DNA of 64,000 bases from Nitrospirota bacterium. Its GTDB lineage: Bacteria > JACPQY01. Below, piece by piece: positions 50,819 to 58,982 of the stretch. Every line of letters starts with the position of its first letter. Positions within the stretch are counted from its first letter, which is position 1. The position numbers and the translations under genes are program-made. The notes beneath the pieces were generated by a model. The model ran no database searches, was not told the origin of the DNA, and saw nothing but the letters and a program-made list of their open reading frames with translations. Location of the stretch: assembly GCA_016180645.1 (NCBI GenBank), contig JACPAV010000008.1, positions 57,012 to 121,011 of the forward strand, in the 5' to 3' direction.

Positions 50819-50947
50819 GATTTCCCCTCCCTTCGCTATTGATGACTCTCCTATTCTACCCCACTCTCCCAACTTCGCCAGCCATCGCCGGCCTCGATTG
50901 AATGCGGTTCAGGGCCAGACGCCATCATCACGCGAAATCGAGGGAAA

Positions 50948-51018
50948 CTGGGAGACTAGGATTCGAACCTAGATAAACGGATCCAGAGTCCGTTGTCCTG
51001 CCATTGGACGATCTCCCA
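50948..51018 (-). tRNA. tRNA-Gln (anticodon CTG)
   Basis: A 71-nt cloverleaf: acceptor TGGGAGA/TCTCCCA, D-arm GTCC/GGAC, anticodon stem ACGGA/TCCGT with loop CTCTGGA (anticodon CTG), T-arm CTAGG/CCTAG with TTCGAAT loop, discriminator G, no encoded CCA. The 5' half, from the anticodon loop to the acceptor end, is part of a 39-bp repeat that recurs at 58929-58967. The integrase stop codon is only 8 nt upstream of the tRNA. Confidence 0.95.
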
Positions 51019-51019
51019 G
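50981..51019. repeat. attL core (39-bp direct repeat inside tRNA-Gln)
   Basis: These 39 bp are identical to 58929-58967 and cover the tRNA-Gln 5' half from the anticodon loop to the acceptor end. The crossover is likely in the anticodon loop region, where the identity begins. Confidence 0.93.
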
Positions 51020-51026
51020 AAATGCG

Positions 51027-52268
51027 TTAGGACGCGACCTTAGCACCAGCCAAGTCCGTTGACAAGGTTCCGTTGATACTTGGTGTGATACTTCGTTCCA
51101 CGGAACCCCCTCCGGCAAGCCGCTCAACGGCACTCTGCTTGTGCGATGGCGACAGGTGCGCGTAGCGTAGGGTCATCTCAATCGTCCGGTGGCCCATTAA
51201 CTCTTTCACGGTGGTCAAGTCAACCCCGGCCATCACAAGACGGCTGGCGAAGCTGTGCCGAAGGCAGTGGAACGTGAAGTCCTCGATCCCCGTCTTGTCG
51301 ATCACATCCTCGAACCACTTGGACACGATCCACTTCCGCCGCCCCTGCCACCGGGGGAACACCGCATGCTTTTGCAGGATGGACGACGGCAAGGCCGCAA
51401 CATTGCCCTTCTCCGTGGGTTGCAACGCGCCCATCCGCTCATCCCGCATCCGCCGGAGGGTTTCCCTCACCACGCGATTCATAGGCACCTGGTAGTTGCG
51501 CCCGCCCTTGGCCTCTTGAACGTCGATCACCCCCGCGGAAAAATCCACATCGCCCCACAGAAGTTCTTTCAGGCCGCTCAACCGGATGCCCGTGTGAAGC
51601 GCCAGCACCACAAAGGGCCTCTCGTCGTCCTTGAGCACCGCGAACACCCTTTTCTCTTCTTCGTCGGACAGGTAGCGGACGCGACGATTCTGCCTCTCCG
51701 GGTAGAACTTCACACCTTTGACGGGGTTCTTTTCCGCCTTCCCGTTTTTCATGGCCAGGTAATAGGCAGACCGTAGGGAAGCCAGGTAGCGGTTGATCGT
51801 GGTCCCCATGCAGGCTTGAGTCTTCCGGTTCTTCAATTTCCGCACCTCGGTCAGCTTCGTTTTCCACGTTTCGATCTCTTGCGCCGTCACCGATCCGGCG
51901 GGTTTCGTTCCAAGGTGTTCGATCCAGTAGCCAAGCCGTTGCACGTCGTCGGCCCAACTCTTCTTGTTCGCCTTCCCCCACGTGATGAAGTCTTCCGCGA
52001 TTTCCTTGAACGACACCGCCCGCCTTGCTCTCACCGCATCCGGCCTGAACTTTCCTTCGACAATCTCGTTCCGGCGTTTTCCGTAAAGCTCGATCGCCTT
52101 CCCCTTCGGCCCCACCCGCTCGCGGTGTAGCTTGCCGTCCCGATCCCGGTAGCGGATGTACCAGACGCCCGTGTTGACCTTCGCCACGGCGGGGACGATG
52201 AGGAAGTCTTCAACGCTGTACTTCACGTACTCGTAGACCCCACGCGGGTTCCTCTCACGCCTTGCCAT
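51027..52268 (-). CDS. Tyrosine recombinase/phage integrase
   Basis: A 413-aa site-specific recombinase. It has an N-terminal arm-binding/SAM-like region (EIAEDFITWGKANKKSWADDVQRLGYWIEHLG) and a catalytic domain with LALHTGIRLSGLKELLWGDV (Arg I), FHCLRHSFASRLVMAG (HxxR), ELMGHRTIEMTLRYAHLSPSH (His and catalytic Tyr). All active-site residues are present. About 40 residues follow the Tyr; that part of the gene contains a 31-bp repeat shared with the other element end and a promoter-like site facing the tRNA. It overlaps the small RHH gene by 14 nt. Confidence 0.94.
   Translation of the reverse strand: MARRERNPRGVYEYVKYSVEDFLIVPAVAKVNTGVWYIRYRDRDGKLHRERVGPKGKAIELYGKRRNEIVEGKFRPDAVRARRAVSFKEIAEDFITWGKANKKSWADDVQRLGYWIEHLGTKPAGSVTAQEIETWKTKLTEVRKLKNRKTQACMGTTINRYLASLRSAYYLAMKNGKAEKNPVKGVKFYPERQNRRVRYLSDEEEKRVFAVLKDDERPFVVLALHTGIRLSGLKELLWGDVDFSAGVIDVQEAKGGRNYQVPMNRVVRETLRRMRDERMGALQPTEKGNVAALPSSILQKHAVFPRWQGRRKWIVSKWFEDVIDKTGIEDFTFHCLRHSFASRLVMAGVDLTTVKELMGHRTIEMTLRYAHLSPSHKQSAVERLAGGGSVERSITPSINGTLSTDLAGAKVAS
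51037..51065 (-). promoter_or_regulatory. Promoter-like site in the integrase 3' end, facing tRNA-Gln
   Basis: On the minus strand TTGTCA (51060-51065) and TAAGGT (51037-51042) are 17 nt apart, and the -10-like box ends 18 nt before the tRNA 5' end. The spacing matches that of the displaced native promoter at the other end. The -10 match is weak. Confidence 0.5.
51068..51098. repeat. 31-bp direct repeat near the left end (candidate integrase arm site)
   Basis: Identical to 58763-58793. It contains TGATACTT twice, 11-12 bp apart. Here it is coding sequence for the integrase C-terminus. Confidence 0.85.
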
Positions 52269-52452
52269 GCTTTCCCCCCTTCGTTTTGAACGGCCTTCGA
52301 CACGTCGGGCATGTTCCGAGAAACGACAACACCGCCCGGCGCATGACTTCGGACGCCGACACGCCCATTTCCTTCGCCGTCCGTCTCACAAGGTCAAGCT
52401 CATTCTCACGGATTTGAAAAGCCGTCAAGGTGTAGCCTTGTTTCTGTTTCAT
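52255..52452 (-). CDS. Small RHH-like protein with a terminal CxxC zinc motif
   Basis: A 65-aa protein: GYTLTAFQIRENELDLVRRTAKEMGVSASEVMRRAVLSFL resembles a ribbon-helix-helix DNA-binding domain, followed by CPTCRRPF. It overlaps the integrase start by 14 nt and lies just upstream of it, a typical position for an excision or integrase regulator. The function is inferred from fold-like pattern and position. Confidence 0.65.
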   Translation of the reverse strand: MKQKQGYTLTAFQIRENELDLVRRTAKEMGVSASEVMRRAVLSFLGTCPTCRRPFKTKGGKHGKA

Positions 52453-52520
52453 GGGGACACGATATTATAAGCCATTTTATATGTCAAGCCCCCCCTTATC
52501 GGAGGCGCGACATCGAACCG

Positions 52521-52772
52521 TCAATCGAGTTCCGCCTCCAGCTTTTCCTGCATTTCAAGGTGGCCCACGAATGTTATCAGGGGCTTGATCTGTTCCGCGT
52601 CCGCCTTGCCCTCCAGCACCGCCCACGCCGTTACCGTGAGGATCGAGCGAGCAGTTTTCACCGCTTGCGTGAAGCGGTCCTTGTCCATGTGGCGCCCAAG
52701 CTCGTCCCACAAGGCGGGAAGGTTCTCCGGCGTCCGCGGAATCTTTCTCGGTCGGCCTCTTCGATGGTTCAT
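52521..52772 (-). CDS. Hypothetical 83-aa protein with a basic AT-hook-like start
   Basis: The product begins NHRRGRPRKIPRTPENL; RGRPRK is an AT-hook-like DNA-binding motif. The rest is helical (LWDELGRHMDKDRFTQAVKTARSILTVTAWAVLEGKADAEQIKPLITFVGHLEMQEKLEAEL). I do not recognise the family. It lies in the same direction as the integrase and RHH gene and may be an early regulator of the element. Confidence 0.58.
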   Translation of the reverse strand: MNHRRGRPRKIPRTPENLPALWDELGRHMDKDRFTQAVKTARSILTVTAWAVLEGKADAEQIKPLITFVGHLEMQEKLEAELD

Positions 52773-53029
52773 CGTTTTACCTCACAAAACTGAAAAATAT
52801 CCATGGGGAAACGCGACAAAAAGGCCAGATATGGCGTCGAAAATGCCCTTCCGCCCTTGTTTCGGCGCTTCGATTTCATCTCCCGTCATCACGTTCCGCG
52901 TGTTCTTACAGCGGGATACACCGGAAGGAGCACGGTGGGTCTTCAGAAAATACGGCGTGTTTCGATGTGGACGCGCAACGGGAACATACCCCCTCCGTCA
53001 TTTCTCTTGTGGATCGTCTCATCCCCCAC
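52773..53029. other. Intergenic stretch in the element, no supported gene
   Basis: Plus-strand and minus-strand frames here are short, lack ribosome-binding sites and have no recognisable motifs. The sequence may be remnant of the decayed gene to the right. Confidence 0.45.
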
Positions 53030-53404
53030 CTACGGATTCGGATGTTTGCCCGCACACCCTTTCTGCCCGCCTGGGGGGGCTTGCCGTGATGATCCGCGGC
53101 AGTCTGCGCTCTCCCGCTTGGTGAGGCCAAGGGCGGAGAGGGTGGGGGCATCCGTAAAAGCCGGTCCCGCTTTGTGACCGGCTTTTCCTCTCCCCGGACC
53201 CGGTGCGCCCTTCGCTTTCGGCGTCTCCTTCAGGAACTCGCCCACCTTGCGCAATGCGCGTAGGCGGATCTCTCTCGCGTGGGCCTCAAGGCAACGGATC
53301 GTCCGGCCTGCCCGCCGAAGCCTTGGCGAAGGCGGGTACTCCAAGCGCCCGTCCTTCGCAGTAGCCTTGCTACGGAGGGTGGATCGGCCCTTGGCGTAGC
53401 TCAA
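53030..53404 (-). pseudogene. Degenerate phage-type gene (ParB/methyltransferase-neighbourhood type) with repeat insertion
   Basis: The stretch AHAREIRLRALRKVGEFLKETPKAKGAPGPGRG...TLSALGLTKRESAD resembles the conserved core of a phage/plasmid protein family with REIRLRAERRxGELLKE and PTLxELGITKKES patterns. After ESAD the similarity stops abruptly and unrelated residues follow. Near the 5' end PSPRLRRAGR is the translation of a dispersed repeat. I read this as a truncated gene; the original start is unclear. Confidence 0.5.
53311..53336. repeat. CCCGCC...GGCGGG dispersed repeat
   Basis: The hairpin CCCGCCGAAGCCTTGGCGAAGGCGGG is typical of a widespread dispersed repeat; it lies in the 5' part of the degenerate phage-type gene and encodes PSPRLRRAGR on the minus strand. 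Confidence 0.7.
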
Positions 53405-53443
53405 AGTTGTAGTTCCTTCCCGCCGGTGGTAGGAACCATTCCC

Positions 53444-53656
53444 ATGGCGGCAGAAGAAAGCCGAGATACAAAGAGAATCCGCGAATTGGTGGAAATCTTC
53501 AGACAGCTTGGCCTTGCCGCCGTGATCGGAGGAACGGCGGACGCCGTGGTGGATGGGACTCGCCTCTTGATCGACGTGTTCGGGATTGCGGTGGGGATCA
53601 TCTTTCTTGGAGTCGCCGTTTGGTTGACGGGCAAGGGAAACGGCGATACCCTATAG
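53444..53656 (+). CDS. Small membrane protein (70 aa), opposite strand
   Basis: MAAEESRDTKRIRELVEIFRQ is a charged amphipathic start, followed by one or two hydrophobic segments (LGLAAVIGGTADAVV and LLIDVFGIAVGIIFLGVAVWL) and a short basic tail. It is transcribed opposite to the main element genes and is followed 2 bp later by a second tiny membrane protein. I cannot assign a function; holin-like or superinfection-exclusion-like roles are possible guesses. Confidence 0.6.
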   Translation: MAAEESRDTKRIRELVEIFRQLGLAAVIGGTADAVVDGTRLLIDVFGIAVGIIFLGVAVWLTGKGNGDTL

Positions 53657-53658
53657 AC

Positions 53659-53775
53659 ATGGACGCGGCAAGCGCAGTTCTCTTGGGAGTCTTCACGAGT
53701 ATGCTTTTGTTCGCCGTGGGCACTGTCATCTACGTGTCCCGCGTCACCCGCAAGAAACCGACCGTCCAGAACTGA
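53659..53775 (+). CDS. Tiny membrane protein (38 aa)
   Basis: ATG at 53659 encodes MDAASAVLLGVF, a single hydrophobic helix running through TSMLLFAVGTVIYV, and a basic end SRVTRKKPTVQN. It starts 2 bp after the stop of the 70-aa membrane protein, so the two are probably co-translated. Single-helix proteins of this type can act in phage or satellite membrane functions, but this is inference. Confidence 0.55.
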   Translation: MDAASAVLLGVFTSMLLFAVGTVIYVSRVTRKKPTVQN

Positions 53776-53840
53776 CCCCTTTCCCCTCACTTCATCTCCG
53801 GCGAGAGAAAATCTGCTTGAACTCTTCCACCACTCTTTGA

Positions 53841-53976
53841 CCGCAACACCGCAACACTACACCCCTTAAAGGGGGTGTAGCTGTGTAGCGCAACATGTAG
53901 CGCAACATGTTGCACAGCAATAGTTTCAAGCACTTAGCCGAGCGCAACATCCGCGCAACATGGGGGTATGTTGCGC
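53841..53976. other. Iteron-like repeats, candidate replication origin
   Basis: GCGCAACAT occurs at 53888, 53900, 53942 and 53953, and inverted at 53968. A 12-bp palindrome GCAACATGTTGC lies at 53902-53913, two GCAACAC copies near 53843-53856, and a 9-bp-stem hairpin (CTACACCCC/GGGGTGTAG) at 53858-53881. The cluster abuts the 3' end of the primase-helicase gene, a usual position for an origin bound by the replication protein. Confidence 0.65.
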
Positions 53977-53979
53977 CCT

Positions 53980-55962
53980 CTACTTCTTGAGCCATTTGCG
54001 GGGTCCTCCGGGGGTGTCTAGGGCGTCGAATTTCCGCCCATCGTCCCGGCTGAAGACGGTTCGGATCGCGCTTTCGGTGATCCCCGTGATCTCCGCGATC
54101 TCCGGGACAGTCTTCGGCCCGTTCTTCAAAGCCATCTCCACCCGCTGCCATTGGGCCAGGCCACCGGCCACGGCTTCCGGCATGGCGTCAAACTCGCTTT
54201 TCTCAAAGGTGATCCGGCCCCCCGTGAATCGGATCGTGAACCCCATCGGAGCTTCAAGCCTGCCCCCGTTGCACTTCCGGTTGAACAAGCCCACCTGGAT
54301 CACGTCCTCGCCGGGGGCCTGCCCGCGTTTCATCTCCCACGTCGCCCGCGCCATGTTGTGCCAGTACCCGGAACCTATCGGCTTCTCCTGGGTGACGTTC
54401 TTCGCCACGTGCGCGATGACGAGGGAGGTCCCGCCGATGAAGCGGACGGCCTCAAAGAACTTCAATGCTCCCTCCGCCGACTCAAGCTCCCCGCCGCTGG
54501 CGGCCCCGGCTGAATCGTACACGATGAACGAATAACCGCCCTCGCCAACAAGCCGCTTGATCTGCCTCCGTTGATCGTACAGGGGACCGATACACCGGCG
54601 GTAGCCAATGGGCGGAAGCCCCTGGTCGGTCACCATCTGCCGAAGGCGGGCCTTGTGTTCGTCCGAATCGGATTCCCAATCGAGATAGAAAGCCTTCCCC
54701 CATGTGTTGCAGGAGTCCATGAGGGGGCCGCATCCCCCTTGATGGGCTACGGCACACGCCAGGGCGAGAAGACTTTTCCCCGTGCCGCCGTCGCCGAAAA
54801 GGATCGTGGGAACACCCAGCGTCACGATTCGATCAATCAACCATCGCGTATCACGTGCCGTCATGGGCGCGTTCAGAAATTCCACCGGGTCACCCGTCTT
54901 GATTCGCTCTATGGCGAGCACGGCCACGCTCTCAAGCATCCCGGCCCAGCCGATCTGTAGCCTCTTCGACAGGTAGTTCACAAGTTGAACCCGCGTCCCG
55001 GTGACAGACAAGTTCGTCCGCACGGGGCCGTGAATCCGTTTCGGCACTCCATCCCCGGTGCCCCGGACCAAAAGTTCAGCGTGAACACCCGTGTTCTCGG
55101 AGTGCACGCCGTCAAGCTCGATTTCGATCTTGTGTTCCGGCCAGGCGAACACCCACGCGCCCCCGCGATCCGAGAAATCGGGCGGTTCCTCGATCCCCAG
55201 CCGTTCCGCTTCGATCCGGTACCGCGTGATGGACTCGATCACGGAGCGAAGCTCCCCGGCGTCCATGGGGGGTCTGCACTTGTCGGCGAAGGGCCGGAGG
55301 ATCGTAGCGATCACGTCCGCCGGGTGCCCCTTGGTGTGGAAGTATCCCGCAAGCCGGGCCGCGTCGGTGTTCCGGGTGCCTTCCGCCGTACCCTTCGCAA
55401 GCAGACGGGATACCCAGTCTGGCGCGTCACCGTTGACCGCCGCTCCCGGATGCGCGTTGCCGTTTCCGTTCTTCCCCTTCAGGGCTTCCGGCAGATTCGA
55501 CAGTACGGCAAGCGGAAGGTCCTTCAGCACGGTGTACGCCTTACCGCCTACCACGCTGGGGCAGGCCATGACGTAGCCCCCATCGCTTCGAACGTCCACG
55601 TGAGGGAGGAACCCCGCCCCAGTATGGAGTTCCGGCGTGTACTTGAAGTACAGGTGCATGCCCTTCGGCGTTTTCACCGTGAAGGTGTCACCGGAGACAC
55701 CGAGCTTCTTGAAGTTCTCCATCCCTTCCGGGCCGTCCAGGTCGATCACGCTGATTCCGCTTACGCTCCCCGTTACAATCGCCATGTTCGGACTTCCATG
55801 GGCGAACCACTTGCGGATGTCCTCCTCGGTGGGGCGTTTCGTCTGAAACGTCTTCCAGTCTACGAGCGGGGGATGTTTCTGACCCTCCCGGATCGGGATG
55901 ACGGCGTACCCTCGCCGGTGAAGTTCAAGCGCGTCCGATAAGATGCTCATTTTTGAGTTCAC
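53980..55962 (-). CDS. Bifunctional primase-polymerase/helicase replication protein
   Basis: A 660-aa protein. The N-terminus is a prim-pol domain (ALELHRRGYAVIPIREGQKHPPLVDWKTFQT, ISVIDLDGPEGME with the catalytic acids, FTVKTPKGMHLYF). Residues about 190-250 resemble a primase C-terminal domain (TRNTDAARLAGYFHTKGHPADVI). A RepA/AAA_25-type ATPase follows: IVTLGVPTILFGDGGTGKSLLALACA (Walker A) and FIVYDSAGAASGG (Walker B). The end has a small winged-helix (TVPEIAEITGITESAIRTVF). It should replicate the excised element from the adjacent iterons. Confidence 0.9.
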   Translation of the reverse strand: MNSKMSILSDALELHRRGYAVIPIREGQKHPPLVDWKTFQTKRPTEEDIRKWFAHGSPNMAIVTGSVSGISVIDLDGPEGMENFKKLGVSGDTFTVKTPKGMHLYFKYTPELHTGAGFLPHVDVRSDGGYVMACPSVVGGKAYTVLKDLPLAVLSNLPEALKGKNGNGNAHPGAAVNGDAPDWVSRLLAKGTAEGTRNTDAARLAGYFHTKGHPADVIATILRPFADKCRPPMDAGELRSVIESITRYRIEAERLGIEEPPDFSDRGGAWVFAWPEHKIEIELDGVHSENTGVHAELLVRGTGDGVPKRIHGPVRTNLSVTGTRVQLVNYLSKRLQIGWAGMLESVAVLAIERIKTGDPVEFLNAPMTARDTRWLIDRIVTLGVPTILFGDGGTGKSLLALACAVAHQGGCGPLMDSCNTWGKAFYLDWESDSDEHKARLRQMVTDQGLPPIGYRRCIGPLYDQRRQIKRLVGEGGYSFIVYDSAGAASGGELESAEGALKFFEAVRFIGGTSLVIAHVAKNVTQEKPIGSGYWHNMARATWEMKRGQAPGEDVIQVGLFNRKCNGGRLEAPMGFTIRFTGGRITFEKSEFDAMPEAVAGGLAQWQRVEMALKNGPKTVPEIAEITGITESAIRTVFSRDDGRKFDALDTPGGPRKWLKK

Positions 55963-56341
55963 TGATTGAAACTAACAGCCAGTCCACCGCCGCGTGGAGG
56001 TTGGCTTGAATCGTATGATCCCGCCGGAGCCGCGCCCCGCATTCCGCGATCTTTCCCACAGCCTGGGAAAGCTCCTCGGCAATCCAACCCTCCGGGGTCC
56101 GGCGTTCGGAAAGTGCAATCCCCGTCATCCAAGAATCGAAAGGAGCAGACACCGAAACGCTTTCAACATTCGCCGCTGCCTGAAGTGATGAAGCGCCAGA
56201 ACGCGGTAGTTCTTCGACACATCTAAGCTCATCGATGCGCCAAGCCAAGGGGCATCCAGTCGCGGGGACAGCCGGCGTCGATCCAGAGTGCGAGAAGGTC
56301 AAGACGATACCGAACCGTCCTGCTCCCGCCGGGGTGGACAA
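55925..56341 (-). CDS. Hypothetical protein between AlpA-like regulator and primase
   Basis: The 138-codon frame overlaps the primase start by 38 nt and the AlpA-like gene by over 100 nt if the ATG at 56341 is used, so a TTG near 56248 is a more realistic start, giving about 107 aa. The C-terminal part is helical (WIAEELSQAVGKIAECGARLRRDHTIQANLHAAVDWLLVSISELKNE). I do not recognise it. Gene reality is supported mainly by close packing with its neighbours. Confidence 0.5.
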   Translation of the reverse strand: MSTPAGAGRFGIVLTFSHSGSTPAVPATGCPLAWRIDELRCVEELPRSGASSLQAAANVESVSVSAPFDSWMTGIALSERRTPEGWIAEELSQAVGKIAECGARLRRDHTIQANLHAAVDWLLVSISELKNEHLIGRA

Positions 56342-56483
56342 TCAAACACGCGGGTATCCGTCCTCGGTAGTGGAGTTGATACAACGTGCGATGCGTAAAG
56401 CCGAGTACCTTTGCCGCTTCTCTCGCTGATCCCAATTGAATCATACTGCTCAAGAGTCTACACCCGCGTAGAATCGCGGTCAA
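56229..56483 (-). CDS. AlpA/excisionase-like helix-turn-helix protein
   Basis: The core SAREAAKVLGFTHRTLYQLHYRGRIPACLIVHPGGSRTVRYRLDLLALWIDAGCP is a MerR-type winged helix typical of AlpA/excisionase regulators of satellites and prophages. The frame allows 84 aa; an ATG at residue 14 (about 56444) may be the real start. AlpA-like proteins activate integrase or replication genes in phage satellites. It lies upstream of the primase gene. Confidence 0.78.
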   Translation of the reverse strand: MTAILRGCRLLSSMIQLGSAREAAKVLGFTHRTLYQLHYRGRIPACLIVHPGGSRTVRYRLDLLALWIDAGCPRDWMPLGLAHR

Positions 56484-56550
56484 TGACTATCTGTCACTGT
56501 TACCGCGACAAAAGAGAGGGTGGTATTTGTCGCGGTAACGTAGGGGGGGG

Positions 56551-57465
56551 CTAGTCCGGTGGGGGAAAGAACTTGGAAGCGCCGGTTTGAAATCTGTTGA
56601 CTTGAACGCTTCGTTGCAACGCTCTTGCGGCGCTTCCCTTGGTCGAAATCCCTCGCTGATTCGTGAACATCGGCGCAAGCAGATGCAGAATCAACCCCGA
56701 CATCGAACGTTTTGGAGTTCTTCCCTTCTTTCCCTGACCCTTCGGGGTCGGATCGAGCCAATCCTTGATTTCGTCTGTCATGGTCGGCGCAAGGTCCGTG
56801 TTTGGAAAAGAAGCCAGCAACGCGGTTTCCCACCGTGGGTCTTTTCTTTGGCTCTTGTAGACCCCTTTCGGCATGGGCGGGAAGAGAGGGGATATGTGCT
56901 GTTTCAGTGTCCAATATGCCGTCGCCACAGCGACGTGAAAGTCTTTCGGTGTGTCAGGCTTTCTCTTCGGTAGCTGAAACTTGGACTCAAACAGCAATTT
57001 GAAGCGAGAAATCTTTTCCGATCCATTTTCGGCGTCCATAACCTCACCGACAAGCTCCCGGAACCGCTGCAATAGAACGGGACCGCTCATCTTCCCGGCG
57101 TGATTGCGGACGAATGCAAGGAAAGCGTCACCGATGGTGCGTCCTTCCGGTGGAAACGTATTTCTCAAATCTCTCTCCAGGCTTGGGAATACCCCCCGCA
57201 GGGGGTTCGGGATTCTGTCCCTTCGTGCCGAGTGCATTTCTCCATAGAGTGTTCTCGCGGTAGTCGGCAAAATGCAGGGTTGATTGTTCCAATTCGCCTT
57301 GATGTAGCTTTCCGGGGTCCACTCGGCGCGGCACCGGGCAAGACTGTTTACGACATCCTCACGATCCCGGTTTTCTTTCCTGCGCCGAGCATCCTCCGTG
57401 AAACGCGGTTCGATGTCGTCGTTTCTTGGCTCCCCATCCGGGGGCGTGAAATCCTTTTCCGGCAT
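56551..57465 (-). CDS. Large hypothetical protein of the element
   Basis: From the ATG at 57465 (GGAAGGA upstream) the product is 304 aa: MPEKDFTPPDGEPRNDD, then helical sequence such as VVNSLARCRAEWTPESYIKANW and FLAFVRNHAGKMSGPVLLQRFRELVGEVMDAENGSEKISRFKLLF, ending with a basic region. An upstream frame extension to 57669 is possible but would overlap the protease gene and is low-complexity. No signal peptide, no known domain. It lies between the AlpA-like gene and the protease, a location used for variable cargo in satellites. Confidence 0.58.
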   Translation of the reverse strand: MPEKDFTPPDGEPRNDDIEPRFTEDARRRKENRDREDVVNSLARCRAEWTPESYIKANWNNQPCILPTTARTLYGEMHSARRDRIPNPLRGVFPSLERDLRNTFPPEGRTIGDAFLAFVRNHAGKMSGPVLLQRFRELVGEVMDAENGSEKISRFKLLFESKFQLPKRKPDTPKDFHVAVATAYWTLKQHISPLFPPMPKGVYKSQRKDPRWETALLASFPNTDLAPTMTDEIKDWLDPTPKGQGKKGRTPKRSMSGLILHLLAPMFTNQRGISTKGSAARALQRSVQVNRFQTGASKFFPPPD

Positions 57466-57653
57466 TCGTCGTTCCTTCCTTTCAGCCCGGCGCGAGTTGG
57501 GAGACACGCTCCGGCCTTTGTTCTCCTCCACGCCCTTCGCTTCATTCCCGGCAACCGATTCCCGTCCGGTCCCGGCCTTCCGTCTCCTGGGCTTTCCTAT
57601 GCTCACCCTTGTGGCATGGGCTTGAGTTGCAGAACGCGAGCGGGATCTGTTCA

Positions 57654-58622
57654 CTATTTCGGGCACCAAGGTGCATCTTGGAGAGCCTGAGTTGAGTTGG
57701 CCAAGTTCGATTCGACATGACTTGAGGGAATCGCAAAATTGATGTTTTGGGAATCGACCAAAGAGTAGGATGCAATCCCGATCACCTGCCCATCTTCGGT
57801 GATAACGGGGCCTCCACTTGAACCGGGAGAAATGGGTGCAGTAATCTGAATGACATCAATCCCATGAACCATCTTCCGTCCGGCGACAATTCCGTCGGAT
57901 ACCGTCGGTGACAACCCTGATTCGCGGCCACCGAGGGCCGAGAGTTCCGCGGCTCTCGGAAACCCAATGACATATACCTTCTGCCCTGCACGAACGATTG
58001 TCTTTCCCATCACTCTTGCGTACTGTTCGGGATCTAGACCTAGACCCATGTCTGAGTCACCCAGAGATAACGTGTGAAGATATTTTGCAAGAGCGTCGGA
58101 AAATAAACTGCCCGTGAGGACCTCAGACCACAATTGAGTATTTTCGGATGATGTCTCCGCCCGACTAACGGCCAGGATCACAAGATCCTCCGATCTACTT
58201 CCATATGTGAACCCACTTAACTTCAGCCTGATTCCATCAGACCGAGCTATAGCGATCTGGTCCGGCCGGCAAAACCCGTCCAGGACGTGGTAGCTCGTGA
58301 CAAGGTAGTTTGTTGCAAAGAAACCCCACCGAAACCGTTCCTTCGTCTTCCTCATCTGTTCGCGCATGGAGTCGGCAAATGGGTTGGCGATCATGAAACC
58401 TGATCCGGTTCCTTTGGGCGTGCTCACCAGAAATGTGGCTTTTATTGCTCGATCAATTACCTGCTCAATTTTCTTTTCCTCACCTGTCGCGGCCACGGTA
58501 CCGATGGTGATCGCCAAGGGGATCATCGACAGGCGCAATAACCACCGCTTCTGAACTCCGTGCGGGCCAGCAGGGCCGCACCTGCCCACGCCATACTTAC
58601 CTCTTTCCGAACGCTTCACCAC
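57654..58622 (-). CDS. Exported trypsin-like (S1/HtrA-type) serine protease
   Basis: A 322-aa protease with a signal/anchor segment (WLLRLSMIPLAITIGTVAATG). The catalytic triad is complete: LVTSYHVLDGF (His), SEDLVILAVSR (Asp) and PISPGSSGGPVITEDGQVIG (Ser in GSSGGP). The HtrA family is indicated by the protease fold, but there is no PDZ domain. It should act in the periplasm or at the membrane. It is the last gene of the element before the right repeat and is unusual cargo for such elements. Confidence 0.85.
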   Translation of the reverse strand: MVKRSERGKYGVGRCGPAGPHGVQKRWLLRLSMIPLAITIGTVAATGEEKKIEQVIDRAIKATFLVSTPKGTGSGFMIANPFADSMREQMRKTKERFRWGFFATNYLVTSYHVLDGFCRPDQIAIARSDGIRLKLSGFTYGSRSEDLVILAVSRAETSSENTQLWSEVLTGSLFSDALAKYLHTLSLGDSDMGLGLDPEQYARVMGKTIVRAGQKVYVIGFPRAAELSALGGRESGLSPTVSDGIVAGRKMVHGIDVIQITAPISPGSSGGPVITEDGQVIGIASYSLVDSQNINFAIPSSHVESNLANSTQALQDAPWCPK

Positions 58623-58928
58623 GGAACTCCTACGCCCATTGTCGGGGCATCCCTGAAATCGTCACGGACGTGTGTGTATCGGGGGGAAAGCAATGACCTT
58701 GTGGCGATCCACGGGAAAGGTCCCGCTTGGTGTTGCCGGGGGGGGGGGGTGCCTTCTGCTACTTCCGTTGATACTTGGTGTGATACTTCGTTCATTGAAA
58801 AGCATTGTACAGCGTTGAACAGAGGGAACAAGGCCGCTCCCATTTATGCACGATCTCACGGGGTGTTACTGCTAAATCGAAGTACAGCGTAGAACGGCGA
58901 ATAACAGGATTGACAGGGTGTCCACCCT
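58623..58928. other. Right-end non-coding region of the element
   Basis: About 300 bp with a 12-G tract (58738-58749) and the 31-bp repeat at 58763-58793, whose minus-strand reading matches the integrase C-terminus (ERSITPSINGS). Short frames here lack starts or motifs. It probably holds integrase-binding sites and remnants of an older integrase end. Confidence 0.6.
58763..58793. repeat. 31-bp direct repeat near the right end (candidate integrase arm site)
   Basis: Identical to 51068-51098, located about 135 bp inside the right att core. Together with the left copy it would flank the core in the excised circle. Confidence 0.85.
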
Positions 58929-58967
58929 ATCCAGAGTCCGTTGTCCTGCCATTGGACGATCTCCCAG
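58929..58967. repeat. attR core with partial tRNA-Gln (5' half)
   Basis: This is the 39-bp repeat again: a 5' half-tRNA with no T-arm or 3' acceptor strand. The native-looking promoter still sits immediately upstream (minus strand) of this half gene. Confidence 0.93.
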
Positions 58968-58982
58968 GAAAGGCCGGGGAAC

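Follow-up and report, generated by a model that had tools for sequence, protein, structure and literature searches.

A 7.95-kb integrated element in the 5' half of a tRNA-Gln gene of a Nitrospirota bacterium, and its family of relatives in two genomes

We analysed a 64,000-nt window from the Nitrospirota bacterium JACPQY01 (contig JACPAV010000008.1, positions 57,012-121,011), whose genome, here called G000, comprises 4.7 Mb and is 97% complete. The window contains an element of about 7.95 kb, designated C8, inserted in the 5' half of a tRNA-Gln(CTG) gene. Read from right to left, the minus strand encodes a trypsin-like protease, the orphan protein p372, an AlpA-like HTH_17 protein, a small open frame, a primase-helicase, p83, a ribbon-helix-helix (RHH) regulator and an integrase, followed by the tRNA itself; two small membrane proteins, tm70 and tm38, are encoded on the plus strand, facing the primase. 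The features, in window coordinates, are as follows.

50947..51019, minus: tRNA-Gln(CTG), intact, the target gene; the sole tRNA gene called by ARAGORN in the window
50981..51022: left attachment repeat, the tRNA 5' half through the anticodon loop; 41/42 identical to 58929-58970
51027..52268, minus: tyrosine integrase, 413 aa (Phage_integrase, 7e-29)
51068..51098, minus: left arm-type repeat, two AAGTATCA boxes 12 bp apart, within the end of the integrase gene
52255..52452, minus: RHH regulator, 65 aa, overlapping the integrase gene by 14 bp (RHH_1, 20.6 bits against a cut-off of 20.5)
52459..52487, minus: promoter-like TTGACA-17-TATCGT ahead of the RHH-integrase operon, weak taken alone
52521..52772, minus: p83, an open frame with no family at E<=0.001
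53030..53404, minus: remnant that starts like the nuclease genes of relatives C58 and G001:C10 and then diverges (starts compared by eye)
53314-53335 and 53354-53378: palindromic stretches within the nuclease remnant
53444..53656, plus: tm70, small membrane protein and family hallmark; tblastn matches in C21 and C16
53659..53775, plus: tm38, one-span membrane protein paired with tm70; found by tblastn in C21, and by position and eye in C16, C58 and G001:C10
53787..53810, plus: 24-bp family motif TCACTKCATCTCCGGCGAKAGAAA, after tm38
53857..53880: hairpin CTACACCCC/GGGGTGTAG adjoining the iterons (region z -3.7)
53888..53976: five GCGCAACAT iterons, likely replication origin
53980..55962, minus: primase-helicase, 660 aa, with Prim-Pol (ORF904-like), PriCT_1, RepA-like helicase (AAA_25) and a winged-helix end
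55925..56341, minus: small open frame between the AlpA and primase genes, start uncertain; no family at E<=0.001 (Pfam, PHROGs)
56229..56483, minus: AlpA/excisionase-like HTH_17 protein, 84 aa (Pfam 6.3e-7, over the cut-off; phrog_66, excisionase, 7.6e-6)
56499..56539: 14-bp perfect inverted repeat between the AlpA and p372 genes, a possible operator or terminator
56551..57669, minus: p372, orphan cargo (304 aa with a later start)
57654..58622, minus: trypsin-like serine protease, cargo, with an N-terminal hydrophobic stretch and a 16-bp overlap with p372 (Trypsin_2, 6.7e-16)
58757..58793, minus: right arm-type repeat, the same 31 bp (58763-58793) plus a third, imperfect box AAGTAGCA
58929..58970: right attachment repeat, the displaced tRNA 5' half, with native upstream DNA beyond

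The boundaries of C8 are set by its attachment repeats, which are 42 bp long, 41/42 identical and 7,948 bp apart, the latter being the size of the insertion. A sequence-only reading of this DNA had described a 39-bp perfect repeat, which proves to be the exact core of the 42-bp one, the first mismatch falling at position 40. When the flanks are joined by script, a 73-nt tRNA-Gln with exactly the present sequence results, and the right end alone yields no tRNA; together with the paired repeat, this bears out the insertion in the tRNA-Gln anticodon region that had been proposed. A search of G000 with the tRNA-Gln(CTG) DNA returned one full-length match and the displaced half; the tRNA array on contig C59 includes a second, divergent tRNA-Gln(CTG) prediction. 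In the relative G001, a member of another genus (the phylum is represented by two genomes in the compared set), the tRNA-Gln is unbroken and 92% identical over 72 bases; its contig is 6,945 bp long and ends close by, and convincing alignment there is limited to the tRNA. The GC content is 53-56% in the right part of the element versus 60-65% in the DNA to its right. Inside both ends lies a second direct repeat, 31 bp and perfect, located 45 bp from the left and 135 bp from the right attachment repeat; its box-pair pattern, with at most 2 mismatches, was observed 3 times versus 0.01 expected. These repeats resemble the arm sites of tyrosine integrases and are considered putative arm sites, which, flanking the core, would serve the integrase or an excisionase.

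The gene list of the same reading (integrase, RHH, AlpA-like protein and primase-polymerase/helicase with iterons) also stands: the integrase, RHH, AlpA-like HTH_17 and the Prim-Pol, PriCT_1 and AAA_25 domains reach their Pfam cut-offs, as does the trypsin-like protease, and all 5 copies of GCGCAACAT in the window fall at 53888-53976 (chance expectation 0.44). The integrase, in which the R, K, H, R, H and Y motif strings are present (presumably the catalytic residues), likely excises C8 as a circle, and the AlpA-like protein is likely an excision factor or activator. Compared with solved structures, the primase-helicase profile matches ORF904 and RepA chains in its two enzymatic domains, which we take to derive from plasmids pRN1 and RSF1010, respectively; in C8, these domains differ from both in being fused with PriCT_1 and a winged-helix end and in residing in an integrating element. 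The enzyme is predicted to replicate C8 from the iterons. A protein search with it produced 73 matches, itself included, among the 7,996 candidates with most shared words that were scored, the best full-length relatives being 39-42% identical. In genome contigs, the best 80 of 248 relatives of the primase profile mostly matched in one domain, with the top ones, from Chloroflexi, at 32-34% identity; used there as a single query, the primase gave 27 candidate stretches, of which 0 were confirmed, and tblastn against phages (209 records) and plasmids (29 records) found none covering 80%.

The element had further been described as devoid of structural and conjugation genes, the discovery of which was named as grounds for giving up that view. 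Across the open reading frames (ORFs) scanned (10 and tm70 in Pfam, 10 in PHROGs and 7 in NCBIfam), no capsid, packaging or conjugation family was matched at E<=0.001, and the main ORFs likewise yielded no relaxase at that threshold in the three collections. Below the cut-off, RHH resembled MobA/MbpA mobilization proteins (E 0.018-0.02, NCBIfam), and the primase and protease matched small-terminase, baseplate and minor-tail PHROGs (E 0.06-0.4). In the whole G000 genome, there was no match to phrog_2 (which we take to be the terminase large subunit), Phage_portal or T4SS-DNA_transf, models that as controls matched in 11, 4 and 5 of 14 genomes, respectively; thus, no resident helper of such kinds is visible. 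Any helper may be a lytic one, or of a kind that these models do not cover. To reach new cells, C8 would need the machinery of another mobile element.

Relatives of C8, reached via the primase profile and then via the other proteins, form a family of five elements: C8, C16, C21 and C58 in G000 and C10 in G001. All five carry an integrase gene (truncated in C21) and a pair of tm70-type and tm38-type genes followed by the exact motif TCACTKCATCTCCGGCGAKAGAAA. C16 is bounded by a 47-bp repeat in tRNA-Thr, with copies 5,857 bp apart, and encodes an integrase, RHH, tm70, tm38, AlpA, other cargo and a DUF3987 helicase that replaces Prim-Pol; seven of its proteins were scanned in Pfam, with no phage structural family found. 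C21 is a 3-kb remnant with 41-bp repeats of tRNA-Arg, the truncated integrase, an RHH-like gene recognised by eye, tm70, tm38 and a piece of helicase. In C58, an integrase with a different N-terminus accompanies a gene resembling, by eye, the Hjc-like one of G001, and a 62-aa membrane protein with its partner; a repeat search around it found only a tandem repeat and one 73% repeat. The G001 element has its integrase beside tRNA-Gly, together with RHH, the Hjc-like nuclease (over the Hjc cut-off) and a 62-aa membrane protein with its partner; a second tRNA repeat was not found up to the contig end. Replication modules and cargo thus vary among members, and the tm70-tm38 pair and the 24-bp site are constant. 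The tiny membrane proteins, previously treated as oddities, vary least among the five elements of the two genomes. Two observations on single members may be added. The C21 remnant (L170:16841-17575) contains two frames of repeated 'DEKG..A'-like units, and in C58 (L185:7252-7434) a tRNA-like stretch (RF00005 positions 8-63), cut at the start of a TCACGAC tandem repeat, adjoins the family integrase.

A tblastn search with tm70 missed its 62-aa counterparts in C58 and G001:C10, which were assigned by position, a 36%-identity alignment and the adjoining motif; a tm70 profile that includes them recovered 8 proteins in a large database, 3 of them apparently those of C8, C16 and C21. The motif TCACTKCATCTCCGGCGAKAGAAA occurs in G000 as 4 exact copies and 1 with 3 mismatches and in G001 as 2 exact copies (reversed control, 0). 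In both genomes, the exact copies are confined to the five family elements, both G001 copies lying in C10 (L188:12107 and 13548). The motif coincides with the end of a frame in C16 (FLSPEMQ, 146 aa) and at the imperfect copy near integrase C18 (FLSPEIH, 127 aa); at the other five copies (C8, C21, C58 and the two of G001), the preceding open frame is 8 to 48 codons long. To its left lies the constant membrane pair and to its right, differing replication modules. We read TCACTKCATCTCCGGCGAKAGAAA either as a DNA site with a function or as a scar left by the swapping of modules. In practical terms, it provides an exact tag for finding further members. The copy with 3 mismatches belongs to a mosaic region (L183:3246-13251) that lacks tm70 but has an integrase and frames resembling, by eye, helicases and AlpA; this variant copy lies some 5 kb away from the integrase of C18. 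No direct repeats of at least 25 bp were found around C18 or around the tRNA-neighbouring integrase C28.

The use of the tRNA 5' half sets C8 apart from most islands of its kind. In a survey of tRNA islands, as given in the excerpted text of PMC4383910, a 5' fragment was displaced in 159 of 3,919, and the excerpt of PMC8371274 states that, in bacteria, a tRNA restored by integration almost always retains its own promoter. According to the latter, archaeal pTN3-like integrases take the 5' half, with the tRNA expressed from the integrase promoter, an arrangement seldom met in bacteria. C8 has the integrase, tRNA and displaced fragment in the order and orientation of a tRNA-targeting tyrosine-integrase island, and the displaced fragment is the 5' half, as in pTN3-like elements and the rare bacterial 5'-half islands (PMC8371274, same excerpt); the host of C8 differs from that of pTN3-like elements in being bacterial, and the likeness rests on site and gene order. 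Among the five tRNA-neighbouring integrases inspected in G000 (C8, C6, C16, C21 and C28), both repeats were found at four, involving the 5' half in C8, C21 and C6 and the 3' half in C16; C28 had no repeat within 19 kb. In C8, C21 and C6, integrase gene and tRNA share a strand, with the integrase gene upstream, and the C6 integrase is 38% identical to that of C8. An Acidobacteriaceae locus (L049) with a 35% related integrase displays the same gene order at tRNA-Lys, its other end not having been found. Of 8 primase-related loci with a tRNA nearby, three (L045, L019 and L021) had repeats, that of L045 comprising the 3' half. The C6 island itself (L182/L199, G000:C6:100973-117829) measures 16.9 kb, occupies the 5' half of tRNA-Met with a 31-bp repeat and carries type I restriction genes.

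The integrase gene of C8 is oriented into the tRNA and ends 7 bp from it. Given this orientation and the native upstream DNA having been pushed 7.9 kb away, the tRNA-Gln is likely transcribed from the element, either from the integrase operon or from a weak promoter in the element end. The RHH-integrase operon is likely self-regulating; the TTGACA-17-TATCGT ahead of it falls in DNA aligned with G001, matches of this type numbering 3 in the region versus 2.2 expected. One speculative and rather doubtful extension is that lineage-restricted satellites capture the host tRNA supply via the 5' half: the RHH-integrase operon would be the tRNA promoter, the host could not silence the integrase without losing the tRNA, and the 24-bp site beside the membrane pair would meanwhile act as a swap point for whole replication modules. 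C8 makes testable a long-standing question, namely, how a tRNA is expressed and an integrase controlled when an element replaces the DNA upstream of the tRNA.

Part of the same operon has a close counterpart in the other genus. The stretch 52286-52495, comprising RHH and its upstream DNA, is identical to G001 at 186 of 210 bases (89%), and the RHH protein is 96% identical over 56 aa. A DnaB-like helicase (named by inspection), the sole yardstick protein, is 68% identical in amino acid sequence between G000 and G001. The difference argues for recent exchange across genera.

Among known systems, P4-like satellites have in common with C8 the integrase, AlpA-type regulator and primase-helicase. 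P4 also has iterons and a tRNA site but uses the 3' tRNA half, whereas C8 takes the 5' half. Besides the integrase and an AlpA of PF05930, the P4 model in the excerpt of PMC8628076 includes Psu, delta, epsilon and alpha, as well as Sid with a profile made by its authors; the AlpA-like protein of C8 matches PF12728, not PF05930, and membership was rejected after a Pfam scan of 10 ORFs at E<=1 gave no hit to Psu, delta, epsilon or alpha. A second comparable system is the PICMIs (phage-inducible chromosomal minimalist islands) of Vibrionaceae. As presented in the excerpted text of PMC10803314, they are minimal, with a core of integrase, AlpA (PF12728 in the model) and primase, a small gene, iolg, overlapping the integrase gene, and no capsid-remodelling gene. 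C8 is likewise minimal, its integrase (PF00589) and AlpA (PF12728) are over the cut-offs, it has a primase, and its RHH gene overlaps the integrase gene as iolg does; the sibling C16 has a DUF3987 helicase, the type named for PICMI primases. By the same excerpt, the differences lie in the site (tRNA-Gln versus fis), the primase (Prim-Pol/PriCT_1/AAA_25 versus DUF3987 or DUF5906) and the number per genome, with several family members in G000 and never more than one PICMI detected (PMC10803314). The C8 family is further distinguished by the membrane pair and 24-bp motif. Site and primase rule out PICMI membership. C8 would work like a PICMI- or P4-type hitchhiker yet belongs to neither group, and the earlier statement that its gene combination matched no family familiar to its author agrees with its failure to fit P4, PICMI, conjugative or mobilizable elements. 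We regard the five elements as a new, apparently lineage-restricted family of a known kind; word searches of the literature cannot show that it is unpublished. What is known of satellites and other helper-dependent elements comes mostly from well-studied bacteria; here a compact, multi-member family occurs in a barely sampled phylum.

Collectively, we consider it probable (about 0.72) that C8 is an element of the tRNA-Gln(CTG) 5' half that likely excises itself, is predicted to replicate and would rely on another mobile element for transfer. The integrated, capsid-less element with satellite-type genes had already been recognised as such; the suggestion that it could be a satellite with an unseen helper went further, and nothing ties C8 to phage packaging. 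A true phage satellite, which, as in PICMIs and P4, a lytic or temperate phage would induce through AlpA and package after replication, would be a narrower form of this interpretation, and we place it somewhat below an even chance. The integrase-AlpA-primase trio, as described for PICMIs in the excerpt of PMC10803314, the DUF3987 type of C16 and the location of the six best viral primase relatives on IMG/VR contigs of 9.9-60.9 kb are all in its favor, to be set against the lack of any packaging or capsid family in the scanned ORFs, of phrog_2 and portal matches in G000, and of IMG/VR viral contigs matching the exact 24-bp motif, the exact iteron pair or tm70. The combination of Prim-Pol, RepA-like helicase and iterons, which are replication parts of plasmid type, and the fact that no transfer or packaging function was seen in the scanned ORFs would also suit a self-contained integrative plasmid, borne on the chromosome and spread mainly by natural transformation or chance with no dedicated helper. 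However, the family occupies several tRNA genes and has likely been exchanged between genera, which implies that it spreads effectively; we consider such a plasmid rather unlikely. Most improbable among the alternatives is the derivation of C8, as a defective remnant, from a larger prophage or conjugative element whose other genes were lost: the broken nuclease gene and decayed relatives C21 and C58 point that way, but C8 has kept both attachment repeats, the arm repeats, integrase, AlpA and primase intact, and C16 shares the compact plan, with no phage structural family among its scanned proteins.

Several observations weigh against the helper-dependent element that we favor. No helper is known for C8, and a circular junction, excision and transfer have not been observed; we infer excision, replication, transcription of the tRNA from the element and helper-dependent transfer, and the boundaries, gene content, gene orientation and family are what the sequence shows. 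Family traits are uneven, AlpA being found only in C8 and C16, and RHH being recovered by search in C8, C16 and G001:C10 alone (by eye in C21; none seen in C58), and the iterons were not found in other family elements, only in C8. The nuclease gene is, by eye, broken in C8 and kept in C58 and G001:C10; considered with the decayed appearance of C21 and C58, this suggests that the C8 copy may be partly worn. The 3' half used by C16 indicates that 5'-half use is not general. Finally, the promoter-like TTGTCA-17-TAAGGT before the tRNA, within the element, scores 8/12, which is equalled by 5.8% of random sequences, and the equal-scoring match in the native upstream DNA is reached by 1.5%; of the DNA stretches upstream of 32 host tRNAs, only 5, counting that of the window, attain 8/12 (2.7% of random sequences do), making the test a weak one.

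Of the cargo of C8, p372 was itself the sole match among 5.8 billion proteins searched, and its predicted structure has no reliable fold (pLDDT 40). The protease has His, Asp and Ser motifs, presumably catalytic, starting at residues 109, 144 and 265, and its search of viral contigs gave no match. A defence role for the protease and p372 was considered and rejected: the PADLOC matches (two RT-Protease_XI models, best 1.5e-13) are confined to the protease fold (residues 200-306), and the element showed no reverse transcriptase. Apart from these, PADLOC gave only weak matches at E<=1 (mad1 with AlpA, 0.0016; LmuA with the protease, 0.0008). The palindromic stretch at 53314-53335 was in no other examined locus except copies of the same region.

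Elsewhere in G000, contigs C59 (L240:6780-10650) and C25 (L241:4472-9784) each carry, near an end, a dense tRNA array, with 30 and 26 predicted genes, respectively. The two arrays are partly alike in order, one holds a tRNA with the anticodon TTA, and they possibly represent a phage, plasmid or other mobile array.

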